Source of the DNA: Leptospirillum sp. | GTDB taxonomy: Bacteria; Nitrospirota; Leptospirillia; Leptospirillales; Leptospirillaceae | NCBI GenBank assembly: GCA_027315205.1 | Contig: DAHUYM010000014.1 | Coordinates: 1 to 38,533, forward strand | Length of the DNA: 38,533 nt | Direction of reading: 5' to 3' | Shown here: positions 7,246 to 16,736 of the stretch, piece by piece | Layout of the letters: each line of letters opens with the position of its first letter | Numbering within the stretch: position 1 is the first letter of the stretch | Made by a program: the position numbers and the translations under genes | Notes under the pieces: generated by a model | Seen by the model: only the letters and a program-made list of their open reading frames with translations | Database searches by the model: none | What the model was told of the DNA's origin: nothing

Positions 7246-7279
7246 AAAGCCCCTTGGTGCACATGTGCCAAGGGGCTTT
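7246..7279 (-). terminator. Strong hairpin terminator of the PEBP gene, possibly bidirectional
   Basis: AAAGCCCCTTGG (7246-7257) and CCAAGGGGCTTT (7268-7279) form a perfect 12-bp stem. The loop contains the self-complementary GCACATGTGC. On the minus strand it is followed by a run of six T (7243-7248 on the opposite strand), so it ends transcription of the gene that stops at 7300. It may also stop read-through from the DsrE/TusA operon, since nothing else between 7064 and 7245 looks like a terminator. Confidence 0.88.
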
Positions 7280-7299
7280 GAACGTCAATAAAGGAGCTT

Positions 7300-7869
7300 T
7301 TACTTCTTGCGGCCATACCTTCCCACGAGCACGCCTTTTCCGATCATGTTCGCGTGGATGAAATACCCGATCAGGGCCGGAGACGCGTTTTTCGGAACGC
7401 TCAGTTTATCGGTCTTCAGGGCGTAGACGGTGAAAATGTAGTGATGCGGACGATCCCCTTTCGGAGGACAGGGGCCTCCGTATCCGGGGGAGCCAAAATC
7501 GGTGGTTCCCTGGACCGCGCCGACAGGAAGCCCTTTACCGTCCGCAGTCCCCGCACCGGCCGGAAGACTTGATACGGTCGGAGGAATGTTATAGACGACC
7601 CAGTGCCACCATCCGGAACCGGTCGGGGCGTCGGGGTCGTAGGCCGTTAGCGCCAGGCTCTTCGTTCCTTTGGGAACCCGGAACCAACGGAGTTCCGGAG
7701 ACGTGTTCTTGCCGGAGCAACCGAATCCGGAAAACACGTTTTCGTTCTTGATCGTGCCGCCATACCGGAATGCGGTGCTGGTGAGCTTGAGTTTCATCAT
7801 CCGGTGGGCATAGGCGCCGGTCGTTACCATCATCAAAAGAACACCCGCCAAAACAAGCGCTCGCCGCAT
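7300..7869 (-). CDS. Periplasmic PEBP/YbhB-family protein
   Basis: 189 aa from the ATG at 7869, preceded by AAGGAGGAAT. A longer in-frame reading to 7950 lacks such a site. Residues 1-21 are a signal peptide ([17 protein letters not shown]). The mature part has the phosphatidylethanolamine-binding/Raf-kinase-inhibitor-like fold signatures: SGKNTSPEL, the ligand-pocket DPDAP at 78-82 followed by [10 protein letters not shown], and [15 protein letters not shown]. Bacterial members are of uncertain function and may bind small anionic ligands. It lies 43 nt behind an Rrf2-type regulator on the same strand and likely shares its transcript, ending at the hairpin at 7246-7279. Confidence 0.9.
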
Positions 7870-7912
7870 ATGTATTCCTCCTTGTAAAGTCAATGAGTGC
7901 AAAGGGTTTCGT

Positions 7913-8374
7913 TCACCGGACCGCAGTGGGCTCCTCGATCTCGTGAACAAGGTCCTGGAGCGTAATGCTCTCGAGTCGATCCTGGATCCCCTCCTGAACG
8001 TAGGAGAAGACCGGTGTCAGGACATCGACCATCCTGGAACTGACGGGACAATCGGGGTTGGGTTCATTGGGGTTGAAGGCAAAGACGGGCGGACACCCCA
8101 TCGCCTGGTAGACATCGTAGAGCGTGATCTTTTCGGGATCGCGGGAAAGCTCGAGTCCTCCCCTCTTTCCCTGATGGCTCCGGATGAGCCCGGCTTTCGC
8201 AAGCTCCGAAACGATCCGGCGGACGACCACCGGGTTGGTGTTGACGCTGTCGGCGATCGTTTCGCTGCTGACCCGACCCCGGTCCCCGCGGGAATCCCCG
8301 GTCCCCAGACGCGATATATGGGTCAGGGCCGTCAGGATATGGGTCGCCACCGCGAACTGGCTGTTCGCTGCCAT
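7913..8374 (-). CDS. Rrf2-family transcriptional regulator
   Basis: 153 aa. The N-terminal winged helix-turn-helix is typical: [58 protein letters not shown]. It then has [11 protein letters not shown] and a dimerisation helix at the C-terminus. Only two cysteines occur ([16 protein letters not shown]), fewer than the three that hold the iron-sulfur cluster in IscR or NsrR. A redox-disulfide or thiol-sensing role like that of YwnA/CymR-type members is more likely than cluster binding, but this is inference. It is the first gene of a probable two-gene unit with the PEBP gene, and the promoter lies at 8460-8488. Confidence 0.9.
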
Positions 8375-10677: not shown

Positions 10678-10976
10678 CGATTCTTCCCGGCCGTTCGAAC
10701 GGCGCACTCCCTTGCCTTCCGAAGATCGAAAGACGTCTCGTTACCCACACCGGTCCCGATCATCCAGGACCGGACTTCCAAAATTATTCGATCACTGATT
10801 CCTATTGATCACGAGGGAAGAAATGGGCTCGGAAATTGGAGCGGAAAACGGGATTCGAACCCGCGACCCCCACCTTGGCAATGTGATTTAGGACTTTGGT
10901 ATAGAGTGTGATCAATTAACATTTTCTTTGCGATACATGGTTAGTCATGATCCATTTTTATTGTCCCTCAGGAGCG
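10678..10976. other. Intergenic region at the left island boundary
   Basis: It holds the 14-nt palindrome GCCGTTCGAACGGC (10690-10703), the tRNA fragment (10836-10881), and about 95 nt of AT-richer sequence before the end of the minus-strand TpsB-like gene. No terminator for that gene and no integrase piece is visible. Confidence 0.5.
10836..10881 (-). repeat. Displaced tRNA-Gly 3' half (candidate attR)
   Basis: 46 bp copy of the 3' part of the tRNA-Gly(GCC) gene at 16661-16706, from the anticodon arm through the T-loop to the CCA end. Three mismatches are visible over the 46 bp. The 5' half of the tRNA is absent: the sequence after 10881 diverges at once. It is in the same orientation as the intact tRNA, on the side downstream of its 3' end. 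That is the arrangement left by elements that integrate into the 3' end of a tRNA gene. Confidence 0.85.
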
Positions 10977-13130
10977 TCAATATTTGAGTCCAAGCATAAG
11001 CCAGACCTGGAGGGGGAGGCCCCCCTGAGAGATGTTGCTTCCCGTGACGGCGGTAATACTGTTTCCAAGCGTGCTGACCGGAAGAACGCCGACAGGAATA
11101 GCCGCGTCCACTTTTGCGAAGATATGATTTTGTGTCCATGACTCTTCCACGCCTGGACCCATTGCATCAAGGTAGGTACCGATCCCCGTGATCTGAGCCG
11201 CGTCGAAGAAAACGGAGCTTTCGATAAATCCCGGGCCTGCGGAATCGGTCCGCGTGAAGGTCAACATGCCGGCATAGAGGTTGTTTCCGAACAGCGAGGC
11301 TGTAGGAAGAGCCATGACATTCGCGACTCCTCCGATCGTTGCCTGCAGCATCGGATCGAGGACTCCAGCTCCGATGGCCTGTTGATCGACCGATTCCAGC
11401 GAGACAGAATAATGGCGGGTCAGAGTTACTTGAATCTGTCCGAATCCGGTCAGGTAATTCGTAAGCCCTTGGGTATCGCTGTAGAAAGGATTCAACGGGC
11501 TGGATCCGCTCCCCTGGACAAGACTGTATTCCGTATCGGCAATATCGTATCTAAGTATCGCTGGACCCGCGATCCAGAATCCCGACAAATCCAGAGTTCC
11601 CCCGATGAGGCTTCGGTCGTTCTGAACCGTTTGGGAGTAATTGTCCTGGAACTCTTTGACCCAAACAGTCCCTTTTAGGGCAAGCATCGCATCGGGGTTC
11701 TCGACGAAGGACTTCCGCATCCAGAAATCTCCGCCATAATTGCTCCCGCCCACTCCAAGGGCCTGTAACTGAACAGTACTCGCCCCATGCCCCCAAGGAG
11801 AGAATCCGTTCCCCAGAGTGTAGTCCATGGCGATCACGTCCGCCCCGAGCCGTTCGGTGAGACCGAGCGGGAAAGAGTAGGAAAGCGTTCCGGAACTCAT
11901 TCCCCCAAAGGAAGTCGAGGCGTCGATCGCAAACAGGCCTCCGGGAATACCGGCATTGTTCGCATTCCCTGTGGCGTTCAAAAGCACAGCTCCCGTTGGG
12001 GCATAGCCGTAGTTATCGGTTTCGATCTGGGATCCCTCGAAGGTGGATTCCGGAGTGACTTTGACAAATAGGTTTTCGAGGTTCAGCGGGGATTCAGATG
12101 GTTCGGAAATGCCGTCTGTCGAGGGTCTGGTAAATTCGGTCATCCCTTTCCCGGTTGACTCCTCATTCGTGTCGATCATGAAAGGGGGGACAGGTTCCTT
12201 TTGTTCGGAAACTTTCATAAGGGCCCGTTTGATCGCGTTCAGAAGCCGAACTGGAACCGACACCCGGTATGTCCCGTCGCCGACGATTTCGACCCCGAGC
12301 GGCTTCCAGAACCGGGAATCCGGCCAGTCGACCACCTCCTCCAACGCGCGTTTGAAGGCCGATTTCGTCGTGTCCATTGACTGTTTTGCCACATAGAGAG
12401 TGACGTCCCTCCGGATCTCCCTCCTCCAGTCGTCATTCTTGGTGCGAATCAGGAAGGTCACAGGATTCTTGAAGGCGCCATTTCGCAATCTGGAAACTGG
12501 GACCACGATCGCGTCGACCCGGGCAAAACCTGGTACTCGGCTGATTTTGTAAAGAGAGTCGGACAGATCTCGAGAATCCAGGATACCTCCGGAAACTAAA
12601 GGGAGATGATCGACGACGAAACGGCCCTCTCGTTCGTTGCCCCCGATAACGGTCACGCGGTGGACTCTGTAGACGAGACGCCCGCTCTTAAGAGCTCTGC
12701 CAAGTTCTTTCGCGAGATTGTTGAGTGTTTTCGCGGATACGATGGCGATAGCCCTGGTTCCCGTCCGACGGCCCGCAATCGGAAAACCACGGATGGAAAG
12801 CGAATGAACCTCGTTTGCAAGGATGATCGATTGAAGAGAGGTGGGATGAGGGGCGACCTTCGTAGCAACCCACGCTGCAACGTTTCTCCGGACATCTTTT
12901 CTCCAGTCGGCTTCGTGAACCCGAATCTCGAAGCGCATGTCCCTTTTGAAACGGATTGTGGTATTGGGTGTGCCCTTCTCGGGCCTCCGGAAATCCGGTT
13001 TCCGGCATCCGGACATCACATTCCCCAGGGCGCCGGTCGAGGGGCAACCGTCAATTTGGGCTATGGCAGGAACCGCATCCCAGAGAACGATGCCCGGAAT
13101 CAGGATGGAAAGGATCCAGACATTCCTTAT
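10977..13130 (-). CDS. TpsB-like outer-membrane transporter with duplicated N-terminal module and ATA start
   Basis: 717 aa if read from ATA at 13130. The first standard start in frame is the GTG at 13019 (680 aa). The ATA start restores a full signal peptide (WILSILIPGIVLWDAVPAIA) and has GGGAGG seven nt upstream. TpsB proteins export a TpsA partner through a 16-stranded barrel gated by POTRA domains. A POTRA-like segment (LDSRDLSDSLYKISRVPGF, residues about 184-202) is followed by a Gly/aromatic barrel from about 365, with DNYGYAPTG, LSYSFPLG and the C-terminal LMLGLKY. Two copies of an 80-residue module (about 65-147 and 224-304; FxIR-x4-DWR-x3-RR-x-V-x3-VA) flank the POTRA-like part, which I do not know from TpsB proteins. 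It lies behind tpsA in the same operon. Confidence 0.75.
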   Translation of the reverse strand: MRNVWILSILIPGIVLWDAVPAIAQIDGCPSTGALGNVMSGCRKPDFRRPEKGTPNTTIRFKRDMRFEIRVHEADWRKDVRRNVAAWVATKVAPHPTSLQSIILANEVHSLSIRGFPIAGRRTGTRAIAIVSAKTLNNLAKELGRALKSGRLVYRVHRVTVIGGNEREGRFVVDHLPLVSGGILDSRDLSDSLYKISRVPGFARVDAIVVPVSRLRNGAFKNPVTFLIRTKNDDWRREIRRDVTLYVAKQSMDTTKSAFKRALEEVVDWPDSRFWKPLGVEIVGDGTYRVSVPVRLLNAIKRALMKVSEQKEPVPPFMIDTNEESTGKGMTEFTRPSTDGISEPSESPLNLENLFVKVTPESTFEGSQIETDNYGYAPTGAVLLNATGNANNAGIPGGLFAIDASTSFGGMSSGTLSYSFPLGLTERLGADVIAMDYTLGNGFSPWGHGASTVQLQALGVGGSNYGGDFWMRKSFVENPDAMLALKGTVWVKEFQDNYSQTVQNDRSLIGGTLDLSGFWIAGPAILRYDIADTEYSLVQGSGSSPLNPFYSDTQGLTNYLTGFGQIQVTLTRHYSVSLESVDQQAIGAGVLDPMLQATIGGVANVMALPTASLFGNNLYAGMLTFTRTDSAGPGFIESSVFFDAAQITGIGTYLDAMGPGVEESWTQNHIFAKVDAAIPVGVLPVSTLGNSITAVTGSNISQGGLPLQVWLMLGLKY

Positions 13131-13143
13131 TTTTTTACCTCCC
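13020..13143 (-). promoter_or_regulatory. tpsA stop / tpsB start junction with ribosome site, A7 tract and ATAA overlap
   Basis: On the minus strand GGGAGG (13143-13138) is followed by T, seven A (13136-13130) and TAA (13129-13127), the stop of the adhesin gene. ATA at 13130-13128 overlaps that stop as ATAA and opens the transporter frame, which runs without a stop into the transporter. The spacing is ideal for initiation. The same bases also form A AAA AAA directly before the stop, with the ribosome-site-like GGGAGG upstream, the layout of a -1 frameshift site. Confidence 0.6.
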
Positions 13144-16027
13144 GGATGTCTATAATCCCGTTGTCGGTCGGCAATACCACTTCCTGAACTTCGAAGGAAG
13201 AACCGTAAGCGCTGGAATACAAGATATCCGGGAGATTGCCACCCTCTTGGGGAGAATTCTTAAGAGTCGCAATCGGCCCGAAAGGGGGGAAGACAGTCTG
13301 GTAGACAGGAACGGACTGCAGGGTCGAATTGGTTCCGCCGCCCGATGATCCTCCGGAAATCGTCAGGAATCCCTCGACATAGGAAACGGATCCCACGCTG
13401 TCCTGCGACGTGGGGGCAGGAACGTTCAGCCCCCCGGGTACGAGCGCGTAAGTCCCGTCATTGACCGCACCCTGAGAAGAACCGGAATAGGACAGCCCCG
13501 AAATGGATAAAGCGGTCCCACCAAAAGTGAGACTTTGGGTCACCCCATTGCCGCCGGAATACGGGGTTCCGGTGTAGGACGAAACGACGTTGTTGGCTGT
13601 GACCGTATCCGCCGGCATGACCGCCAGGAGAATCGGGGCCGAGATCGTAGACCCTCCGGTGGTTACCGATCCCATGTACCATGGGTCTGTGGAGGCGCTG
13701 TATGTAAACGCCCCTCCGTTCCAGGAATTGAACCCGGCGCTATGGGCCGTCGTCCACCCTGTGAAATTCGAGGAGGTACCGAACTGGGCTGTGGAGAGCC
13801 CGGTTACGCCGGTCAGAGATCCTCCTTGTTGTGCCGTGCTCAGGCCGCTGGTCGACGTGTCCCAGAAGTCGCTCGTGTAGGTTCCCCCAATGTCTTGTCC
13901 CACAAATCCCCCGTTATAGGATCCCGCCGATGCGCTCCCGGTCGAATAGGAGTACAGGATAGCGTGTCCGTTTAACCCCACGAGTCCCCCGGAGTGTGTC
14001 GCGTTCGAAACGTCTCCGGTCGAGTAAGAAAATTGGATCGTGCCTGTGGGGGAATAACCCACAAGGCCACCGGCGGAACCTCCGGCGCCGCCGGTCACGT
14101 TCCCAGTGGCATACGAGTACTCGATCATGGCGTTGCTCTCTCCTGCTAGCCCGCCACCGTTATAATCCCCGGTTACGGTTCCGGTGGAGAAAGTGTCATC
14201 GGCCGTTCCGAGGATGACCCCGGCAAGCCCGCCATCATTCGAACCGGCTTTATTGCTTACGAAGCTGCCTCCTGAGGTTCCCACGTTTTCAATCGTGCTT
14301 GTACTTGACGTGATCCCAAAAAATCCAACGGAACTATGGATCCCGTCGTAGATCGTCAAATTGGAAAGCGTATACCCCTGTCCGTCGAAGTCTCCGGAGT
14401 AATTTGCGGACGAGCTTCCGAAACGAAGCCAGCTGGAGTTGGTCGAGGACCCTTGCGTATAGCCCGTCGTGTTCAGGTTTTTTTCCGTGGCGAAGGTGGC
14501 TTGGGCGAGATCGGTGCCGGATAGGGTTCCCGAGGTGACCGTCGGAAAAGCAATGTTAGTGTTCAAGGCGTAATTATTGGAAAGGACCTGAGTCGTCTGG
14601 TTCTGGTCGATCCAATAGAGGTCGGAACTGGAAGAGAGAAGATCGTATGCCGTCACGGTTCCAGAACCGCTGTTCGAGTAATTTCCCCCCGCCGTACCGG
14701 GATCGGTCAGAGCGACCCCGAAATTGGTCGGGTTTGTTAATATCGAAAGGGCTCCACCCGTTCCAACAGAGCCTCCGGTGTTGATTGCCACAACACCCAC
14801 GCCGGATGGGATTCCGCCTCCGGCTGTATCGGTCGCAACCCCCCCGATCGCAATGTCGTCGGCATGGAATGCGATGTTGCCCGTCCCGCTGTTGGAGATC
14901 GCATTATTGAGTTCGATATTTTTGACGGCGTTCAGAGTCAGGCTGTTCCCACTGTTCCATGAGACCGGATCGTTCACATAGATATTGCCGAGAGCCCCCT
15001 GTGCTCCCTGCGTGCTGTCGATCACGACGTTGTTTGAACCCAGATCTGTTCCCAGCGTGCTTCCCGAAATATCCTCATAACCGATGACGTTTCCCGAAGT
15101 GCTGTTCGCCGAGCCGGAATTCTTGCCGATATAAAAAGAGGAGGGGTCGAGGGTCCAGATTCCGGTGATCCCTACCCGGGACCCGGTCGTGACGACCGCG
15201 CCATCGGCAACGTCGACCCTCGATCCCGATGTCTCGATGGAACCGCCGTTCCCGCCATTCGGTGCTGACGCATCAAGAACGGCCGTCGACGCGAGATGCA
15301 TCATTCCGGAGTCCATCCCGCTCTTCAAAAGGATCGACCCGCTTCGGCTCCCGACCGTCTCTGCTGAAATGATCCCAGAATCATCGACGGTTCCGCTTCC
15401 CGTGGTCGCAACCGAAAATGAAAAACTTCCCGTGGAGGAGACTGGGACCACCGTCGTTCCCGACGCCAGCACAACCGTTCCGCCCGGGACCAGAATCGTC
15501 CCGCTGTTCACGACCGATGTCCCGACGAGGATCACGGATCCGCCCGCCTGGACTAAAATCTTCCCCAAATTCAGGATCGAGCCGGTCGGACTGCCCCAGG
15601 GCGTTTTTACCCCGAACGCCATCACTCCCGCACCGCTGACCACGCTCCCGGATCCGAAGATGAGACCGTTGGGATTCATGAAATACAGGATCCCGTTCGA
15701 CTTCACAATGCCCTGGATCGATGAGGGAGTGGCGCTCAAAATGAAATTCAAAGCCGTGGATTCGGATGTGGGAAGGGCATAATACACAAACTGTCCTGAC
15801 TTCACGTTATAGGACGTCCACTCGTAGCTCGCGTTTTTGGTGCCCTGAGCCACATAGAGCCTGTTCGTGCTGTAGGACAAGGTCGCTTTGCCTTTGATGA
15901 TCACGCCTCCATGGGGAAGGGCAATGGCCATCTCCGGCGCAGACGTCAACGGAAGAATGCCTATTAGAAATCCGAGGAGAAACGTTCGTCCCGAAGGTGA
16001 ATTCCCGAATATTGTCATTCGTCGCAT
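13127..16027 (-). CDS. TpsA-like filamentous-haemagglutinin-type adhesin
   Basis: 966 aa from the ATG at 16027, with AAGGG upstream. It is a secreted surface protein. It has a signal peptide (residues about 14-38, ending SAPEMAIA) and then the TPS recognition domain of filamentous haemagglutinins, with LNFILSATPSSIQGIV, the NPNG hallmark (118-121) followed by LIFG, and repeated Gly/Ser/Thr/Val beta-helix turns. Residues about 590-710 hold GLUG-type repeats (GGLAG, GGLVGYSP, GGLVGLNG with YSYSTG spacers). About 795-875 resembles an MBG/YDG-type repeat (ADTVTANNVVSSYTGTPYSG). The C-terminus is short with no toxin domain visible, so a role in adhesion or biofilm rather than contact-dependent killing is likely. 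The partner transporter follows immediately. Confidence 0.88.
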   Translation of the reverse strand: MRRMTIFGNSPSGRTFLLGFLIGILPLTSAPEMAIALPHGGVIIKGKATLSYSTNRLYVAQGTKNASYEWTSYNVKSGQFVYYALPTSESTALNFILSATPSSIQGIVKSNGILYFMNPNGLIFGSGSVVSGAGVMAFGVKTPWGSPTGSILNLGKILVQAGGSVILVGTSVVNSGTILVPGGTVVLASGTTVVPVSSTGSFSFSVATTGSGTVDDSGIISAETVGSRSGSILLKSGMDSGMMHLASTAVLDASAPNGGNGGSIETSGSRVDVADGAVVTTGSRVGITGIWTLDPSSFYIGKNSGSANSTSGNVIGYEDISGSTLGTDLGSNNVVIDSTQGAQGALGNIYVNDPVSWNSGNSLTLNAVKNIELNNAISNSGTGNIAFHADDIAIGGVATDTAGGGIPSGVGVVAINTGGSVGTGGALSILTNPTNFGVALTDPGTAGGNYSNSGSGTVTAYDLLSSSSDLYWIDQNQTTQVLSNNYALNTNIAFPTVTSGTLSGTDLAQATFATEKNLNTTGYTQGSSTNSSWLRFGSSSANYSGDFDGQGYTLSNLTIYDGIHSSVGFFGITSSTSTIENVGTSGGSFVSNKAGSNDGGLAGVILGTADDTFSTGTVTGDYNGGGLAGESNAMIEYSYATGNVTGGAGGSAGGLVGYSPTGTIQFSYSTGDVSNATHSGGLVGLNGHAILYSYSTGSASAGSYNGGFVGQDIGGTYTSDFWDTSTSGLSTAQQGGSLTGVTGLSTAQFGTSSNFTGWTTAHSAGFNSWNGGAFTYSASTDPWYMGSVTTGGSTISAPILLAVMPADTVTANNVVSSYTGTPYSGGNGVTQSLTFGGTALSISGLSYSGSSQGAVNDGTYALVPGGLNVPAPTSQDSVGSVSYVEGFLTISGGSSGGGTNSTLQSVPVYQTVFPPFGPIATLKNSPQEGGNLPDILYSSAYGSSFEVQEVVLPTDNGIIDIREVKK

Positions 16028-16661
16028 GATTTAACCCTTGTTGTGCACCTCATTTGAACCGAACATCCGATCCATAACGATAGGCAATGGTAACCGGGCT
16101 CACCGTATTTCTCTTATCGGCCAAATTTTTTATAAATTTCATAAATAAATCAAGAAAAACAAGTCATAATCCTATATTGAAACTGATTTTAATATTAATA
16201 ATACTATATTTAATTTTATAAAATTTAAATAATTTTACTTTTTTTACATTACAAATCTCGAATTGAGATGGCTTAAGACTTTCAAACTTTTTGCCCTGAT
16301 GGAATTGCCTAAGATATATGTTGCCGGGCGATGTTTTCAGGACGGTCATATTCACCCGGTGCAAGAAACAAACCGGATTGGACCTGGTTTTGCTGATTTC
16401 CGTTCATTCATCTATCGAATCGGCGCCGATCTATCTGGCCGACTTTTACCGCGGGGATTCGTTGTCAAATGGCGATTGTTTTTCACTAAAGACAAAGTCT
16501 CTATTTTTTTCATCAATATATACATTATTTTTAAGATACTCATTCAATAGTAAATATTGTATTTTAAAGAGAACGATAACAGGATCTAAATTGAAATAGA
16601 GAAGACTTGTCGCTTTCCGATAATTCTTGATGGATTTTTAACGGGTGGGTTTAAAAAAAAT
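16028..16661. other. AT-rich upstream region of the adhesin gene inside the island
   Basis: It contains a structured stretch at 16068-16120 (minus strand: CCGAT pairing with ATCGG, inner GGTGA with TTACC). Very AT-rich blocks lie at 16130-16260 and 16490-16660, and there is a GC-normal stretch at 16315-16475. Two overlapping plus-strand frames of 93-95 codons there have no ribosome site and no family features, and I do not call them genes. The promoter of the adhesin operon is probably in 16120-16260. Confidence 0.45.
16068..16120 (-). promoter_or_regulatory. Possible structured 5' leader of the tpsA operon
   Basis: On the minus strand CCGAT (16120-16116) can pair with ATCGG (16072-16068). 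Inside, GGTGAGCCCGGTTACC can fold as a small GGTGA/TTACC hairpin. The element lies about 40-95 nt before the ATG. The motifs of the known cyclic-di-GMP riboswitch classes are not recognisable, so I only note a possible structure. Confidence 0.25.
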
Positions 16662-16736
16662 TGGAGCGGGAAACGGGATTCGAACCCGCGACCCTCGCCT
16701 TGGCAAGGCGATGCTCTACCGCTGAGCTATTCCCGC
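16662..16736 (-). tRNA. tRNA-Gly (anticodon GCC)
   Basis: 75 nt including an encoded CCA. The acceptor stem GCGGGAA/TTCCCGC is closed. The D-arm is AGCTC..GAGC, the anticodon arm CGCCTTGCCAAGGCG has GCC in the loop, and the T-arm GCGGGTTCGAATCCCGT carries the TTCGAAT loop. It is the intact end of the candidate island. Its 3' half is repeated at 10836-10881. Confidence 0.96.

Follow-up and report, generated by a model that had tools for sequence, protein, structure and literature searches.

A candidate AUA start codon within the tpsA stop overlap of a Leptospirillum two-partner secretion locus, and a conserved counterpart at hisG

The tpsA-tpsB cassette and its surroundings

The window (the whole 38,533-nt stretch of Leptospirillum sp. 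DNA that was analysed) carries on its minus strand a cassette of two genes, tpsA and tpsB, whose features are listed in Table 1. The tpsA product is an exoprotein with an N-terminal TPS secretion domain, as expected of a TpsA protein, that is matched by PF05860 (E 6e-12; 46.4 bits, cut-off 33.5) and TIGR01901 (adhes_NPXG; E 4e-13) and is the only such domain in the 2.0-Mb genome, of which the analysis covered 1.998 Mb of sequence. The C-terminus of the protein, which ends in DNGIIDIREVKK before the stop, resembles a C-terminal motif in TpsA proteins of relatives and therefore looks native. The tpsB product has no Pfam match, and POTRA_2 was not detected in it by sequence profile. Its C-terminal half aligns with a POTRA_2 plus ShlB protein of a relative (hhalign, 99.7%), and its structural model, which is of moderate confidence (pLDDT 64), matches CdiB (8e-7), FhaC (4e-5) and also BamA in Foldseek. 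Based on the alignment and the model, we therefore regard the downstream protein as a transporter of the TpsB/Omp85 type whose N-terminal half has diverged. Both support homology to barrels of the ShlB/FhaC type, for which 16 strands would be expected here, and residues 65 to 309, in which strands and helices alternate in the model, could be POTRA-like.

Table 1. Features of the tpsA-tpsB cassette and the hisG gene of the same genome (positions in the window unless a contig is named)
Feature	Position	Strand	Basis or remark
tRNA-Gly(GCC), bounding the tpsAB cassette	16662..16736	-	tRNA call
55-nt copy (91% identical) of the 3' segment of this tRNA-Gly region; putative att repeat	10833..10887		opposite end of the cassette
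tpsA, TPS-domain exoprotein of 966 aa, starting at ATG	13127..16027	-	PF05860, TIGR01901
tpsB, transporter of the Omp85/TpsB type, 717 codons counted from ATA (stop within coordinates)	10977..13130	-	homology, fold
Shine-Dalgarno (SD) GGGAGG (with T 13137: GGAGGT)	13138..13143	-	within the 3' end of tpsA, 7 nt ahead of ATA
A7 tract, read as A AAA AAA in frame with tpsA; SD spacer, also a candidate slippery site	13130..13136	-	sequence
ATA, inferred tpsB start codon	13128..13130	-	open frame, alignment, codon usage, SD energy
ATAA, 4-nt overlap of tpsB start with tpsA stop	13127..13130	-	sequence
Signal peptide coding region, IRNVWILSILIPGIVLWDAVPAIA then Q	13059..13130	-	signal peptides of relatives begin correspondingly; cleavage site by inspection
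Codon of invariant Cys29, which precedes all standard starts	13044..13046	-	alignments of 12 and 14 family members
GTG 13019 and ATG 13016, the earliest standard start codons; rejected	13014..13019	-	weak SDs; N-terminus lost
hisG, putative ATA start	this genome (G000), contig C11 42038-41358 (L123:1358-2038)	-	ATAA overlap with the murA-like stop, strong SD

At the junction of the two genes, the minus strand reads GGGAGG, a single T, seven A, ATA and TAA (13129-13127), where the tract and the ATA have one A (13130) in common and the TAA is the tpsA stop. A preliminary description of this DNA had placed the GGGAGG seven nucleotides before an ATA that overlaps the tpsA stop as ATAA, the tpsB frame at exactly -1 relative to that of tpsA, a complete signal peptide in the transporter frame beginning at the ATA, and no standard start in this frame before 13019. 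All of this, coordinates included, is borne out by the letters of the minus strand and their translation, in which the tpsB frame is open from 13259 and first offers the GTG and the ATG listed in the table.

Of the 20 other family genomes examined, 13 have relatives of the tpsB product, as do none of 40 other genomes of the phylum, and the named matches are Leptospirillum or Nitrospirae metagenome-assembled genomes. A scan of genome contigs with the single protein as query found no relatives, and a contig scan with the alignment as query found homologues of only ca. 40% to 54% identity, the nearest at about 50%. Among relatives, tpsB precedes tpsA in all nine intact adjacent pairs, and the order of tpsA before tpsB is otherwise seen only in a degraded remnant (genome G002) and in a genome with another gene between the two (G004). 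The cassette is flanked by a 55-nt direct repeat (91%; 10833-10887 and 16658-16712) and includes an AT-rich stretch at 16028-16657 with 33.5% GC. Judged by these sequence features, the region looks like an integrated island without an integrase, and the cassette may be an acquired or rearranged one. We note that a tRNA-Gly(GCC) gene also lies near tpsB paralogues in two relatives, G006 (L042 16528-16602) and G015 (L043 4390-4464).

The tpsA and tpsB genes are accompanied by a gene for a 351-aa protein that has a signal peptide and no Pfam match (L046 14890-15945; L047 about 7275-8327). In G002, the collapsed remnant (L014 about 2050-100, minus strand) is composed of a TpsA N-terminus and a TpsB C-terminus followed by the gene of this protein, the ATG of which overlaps the tpsA stop as ATGA in relative G001, while its start in G004 may be CTG. 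In connection with the G001 overlap, some likeness of first codons was noticed between ATGAGGCTCTGGAT and ATAAGGAATGTCTGGAT, but it is too short to claim a hybrid.

The start of tpsB

The duplex with the anti-SD sequence at the ATA site has an energy of -11.7 kcal/mol. An equally strong duplex is found for 7.5% of 510 genes, for ca. 1% of positions drawn at random and for 0.9% of 12,193 ATA triplets. The energy is -2.0 kcal/mol for GTG 13019 and -5.5 kcal/mol for ATG 13016. In a sample of 0.92 Mb with 716 ORFs, tpsB is the only case of an ATA with an SD of at least 5 nt and a first standard start at least 15 codons away. Genome-wide, there is no enrichment of ATA, ATT or ATC behind strong SDs among the codons upstream of the first standard start (strong SD upstream of 13/394 ATA codons versus 1565/47596 other codons), so that the SD alone is no proof of the tpsB start, and it is the conservation of the N-terminus that carries our sequence-based argument for a start at ATA. 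The alignments of family members show no variation at P21, C29 and C42, of which P21 and C29 are encoded upstream of GTG 13019, and the signal peptides of relatives start at about the position that matches the tpsB ATA. The locus hence combines a conserved N-terminus that has no usable AUG, GUG or UUG with a strong and properly spaced SD. Codon usage switches frames at the junction, from that of tpsA, favoured until the tpsA stop is reached, to that of tpsB after the ATA (+5.5 bits versus -5.4 for the other frames of the strand), a modest signal given that 11% of open wrong-frame stretches score equally high.

With both standard starts unfit and with the signal peptide, P21 and C29 all upstream of them, the ATA is therefore the remaining candidate start, and we put the probability that tpsB is translated from AUA at 13130 at about 0.73. 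The ATA is not kept at tpsB of relatives, which mostly start with ATG and have the other gene order. The AUA start of citZ in Staphylococcus aureus is lineage-specific, and conservation of an AUA is a supporting rather than a defining criterion for such starts.

Putative non-AUG starts at hisG and elsewhere in Leptospirillaceae

A survey of every 4-nt stop-start geometry in roughly half of the genome brought up a second ATAA with a strong SD at hisG (PF01634), which lies behind a murA-like gene of the EPSP-synthase family. An ATA start of hisG in overlap with the murA-like stop is seen in 18 of 21 Leptospirillaceae genomes, i.e., in this one and 17 of 20 relatives (L225-L227, L231-L244), as ATAA in 15 and as ATAG in three of them; these 18 genomes are related and do not stand for 18 independent events. 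Wherever this design is found, the SD energy lies between -10.3 and -12.9 kcal/mol, and none of the standard starts would both have an SD and leave the LVLALPKG motif intact. The start triplet is ATA in 18/18 cases compared to 6/273 ATA among the isoleucine codons of hisG bodies, and the residue that follows it varies (K, S, N, D, E or T). The overlap is never ATGA in any of the 18 genomes, though a single base change from ATAA to ATGA would give an AUG and keep the stop. In the three genomes of genus g4, hisG has no overlap and has upstream standard starts.

Further candidates are found in two other genes. The infC gene starts with ATC behind AGGAGG in this genome (L141 about 1480) and with ATC or ATT in the genomes of 19 relatives (L142-L161), with an SD in 20/20 cases where it was found, and a gene for an NAD-dependent epimerase has an ATT behind a strong SD both here (contig C41 48666, plus strand; L197:8666) and in genera g2 and g5 (L245-L247). 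Given the lack of enrichment in the genome-wide count, AUH starts are a small gene set and not a genome-wide habit. Because the hisG design is conserved and infC has ATC or ATT, it is very probable that initiation at AUA is functional in these bacteria. The conserved hisG layout shows that an ATA in a stop overlap can be kept over time and need not be a new mutation, and this putative AUA start in an AUAA or AUAG overlap is, as a wider result, more interesting than that of tpsB.

Alternative readings and possible translational coupling

Recent mutation of an ATG or a sequence error is an unlikely origin of the tpsB ATA, leaving the gene silenced or crippled in this isolate in one case or normal in reality in the other. 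A single G-to-A change from ATGA would suffice, ATGA geometries number 31 in the sampled 0.92 Mb, the ATA at tpsB is known from one assembly only, and the prevalent ATG of relatives points the same way. However, neither the 717-codon ORF nor the signal peptide shows any other lesion, the SD and its spacing before the ATA are excellent, the ATA layout of hisG is stable over the family, and an error in homopolymer length would be unable to create the missing ATG. The odd start of tpsB is probably real rather than a defect.

The preliminary description had left two readings open, an AUA start with low expression and a -1 slippage of the dnaX type. In the latter, ribosomes would slip by -1 on the A AAA AAA before the tpsA stop, or RNA polymerase would add an A, either of which would create a TpsA-TpsB fusion. 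The heptamer itself is of the right kind, lies in frame directly before the stop as in only one of 716 ORFs of the 0.92-Mb sample, and both the -1 relation of the frames and a single extra A would join the two genes. The SD is 1 nt away from this heptamer and not 8 to 11 nt, though, and an internal SD stimulates -1 slippage at 8 to 11 nt upstream but attenuates it and favours +1 slippage when located next to the E site (PMC6321510), which would not lead into tpsB. Folding downstream of the heptamer is not significant in a model without pseudoknots (z -0.56 and -1.48), the fusion would leave a complete signal peptide in mid-protein, the native-looking C-terminus of TpsA speaks against it, and the SD suits initiation better than slippage. 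A frameshift at this junction is thus highly improbable, and we rejected it on SD spacing and the lack of significant structure; the A7 tract is more simply explained as an SD spacer plus two lysine codons. It is still less credible that translation starts at GTG 13019 or ATG 13016, which as the first standard starts would be picked by automatic annotation, but which have weak or absent SDs, would yield a protein without signal peptide although an outer-membrane barrel requires export, and lie downstream of part of the coding signal and of the invariant Pro21 and Cys29.

The AUA start with low expression is hence the better supported of the two earlier readings owing to the N-terminus, the SD and the hisG parallel, with low yield as a prediction. 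Ribosomes that end tpsA, or that are recruited by the SD, would place fMet-tRNA on the AUA and initiate there at a fraction of AUG efficiency, so that TpsB would be made together with TpsA but in smaller amount, with its translation coupled to tpsA termination. Low TpsB levels would fit an outer-membrane pore that is needed in lesser amount than its substrate, and, with the transporter gene following that of the substrate, weak initiation would bring TpsA back into excess over TpsB. The AUA of tpsB, like the AUC of infC here, should face discrimination by IF3, in which case TpsB output should follow IF3 activity. More speculatively, AUA embedded in AUAA or AUAG might be a maintained and tunable form of IF3-controlled coupling in Leptospirillaceae, with hisG and tpsB as members that could form an IF3-responsive set with infC and the AUU epimerase gene.

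Several known systems resemble this arrangement in part. AUA starts have been described for infC, ccpN and citZ of S. aureus, with extended SDs for infC and ccpN, and AUA reporters yield ca. 10% of AUG and, for ccpN, up to 30% in rich medium (PMC13009471). The tpsB gene shares with these an AUA behind an extended SD, but they were detected by initiation profiling, with reporters for ccpN and citZ staying below AUG, whereas the start of tpsB has been read from sequence alone. Starts with AUU, AUC or AUA are discriminated by IF3 (PMC4611024), and tpsB and hisG resemble the infC genes that use them for IF3 autoregulation in having such an AUN start and a strong SD. Unlike infC, they do not encode IF3, and IF3 control is something that we infer here. 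Overlaps of stop and start couple translation (PMC6728339), and the junction resembles the ATGA overlaps of termination-reinitiation in its length of 4 nt and in having its SD within the upstream gene, though AUAA or AUAG here combines a weak start with a UAA or UAG stop. As in FhaC/FhaB, CdiB/CdiA and ShlB/ShlA, a TPS-domain exoprotein adjoins an Omp85/TpsB barrel, but the two genes overlap in the order tpsA-tpsB rather than the tpsB-tpsA order of other two-partner operons, and the transporter is below Pfam detection with a divergent N-terminal half.

The persistence of a conserved AUA start in 18 genomes, with AUGA close at hand, argues in a testable way for selection on weak initiation, and these loci, above all hisG, are natural sites for testing termination-reinitiation and IF3 action on a non-AUG codon. 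Since gene finders are usually restricted to ATG, GTG and TTG, genes with AUA starts would be annotated without their signal peptide or N-terminus or be missed altogether.

As a separate observation, an RND-type efflux protein (assigned by eye) of 1002 codons on contig C3 of this genome (6697-3692, minus strand) has a possible ATC start behind GGAGG, with its first standard start 50 codons after this ATC.
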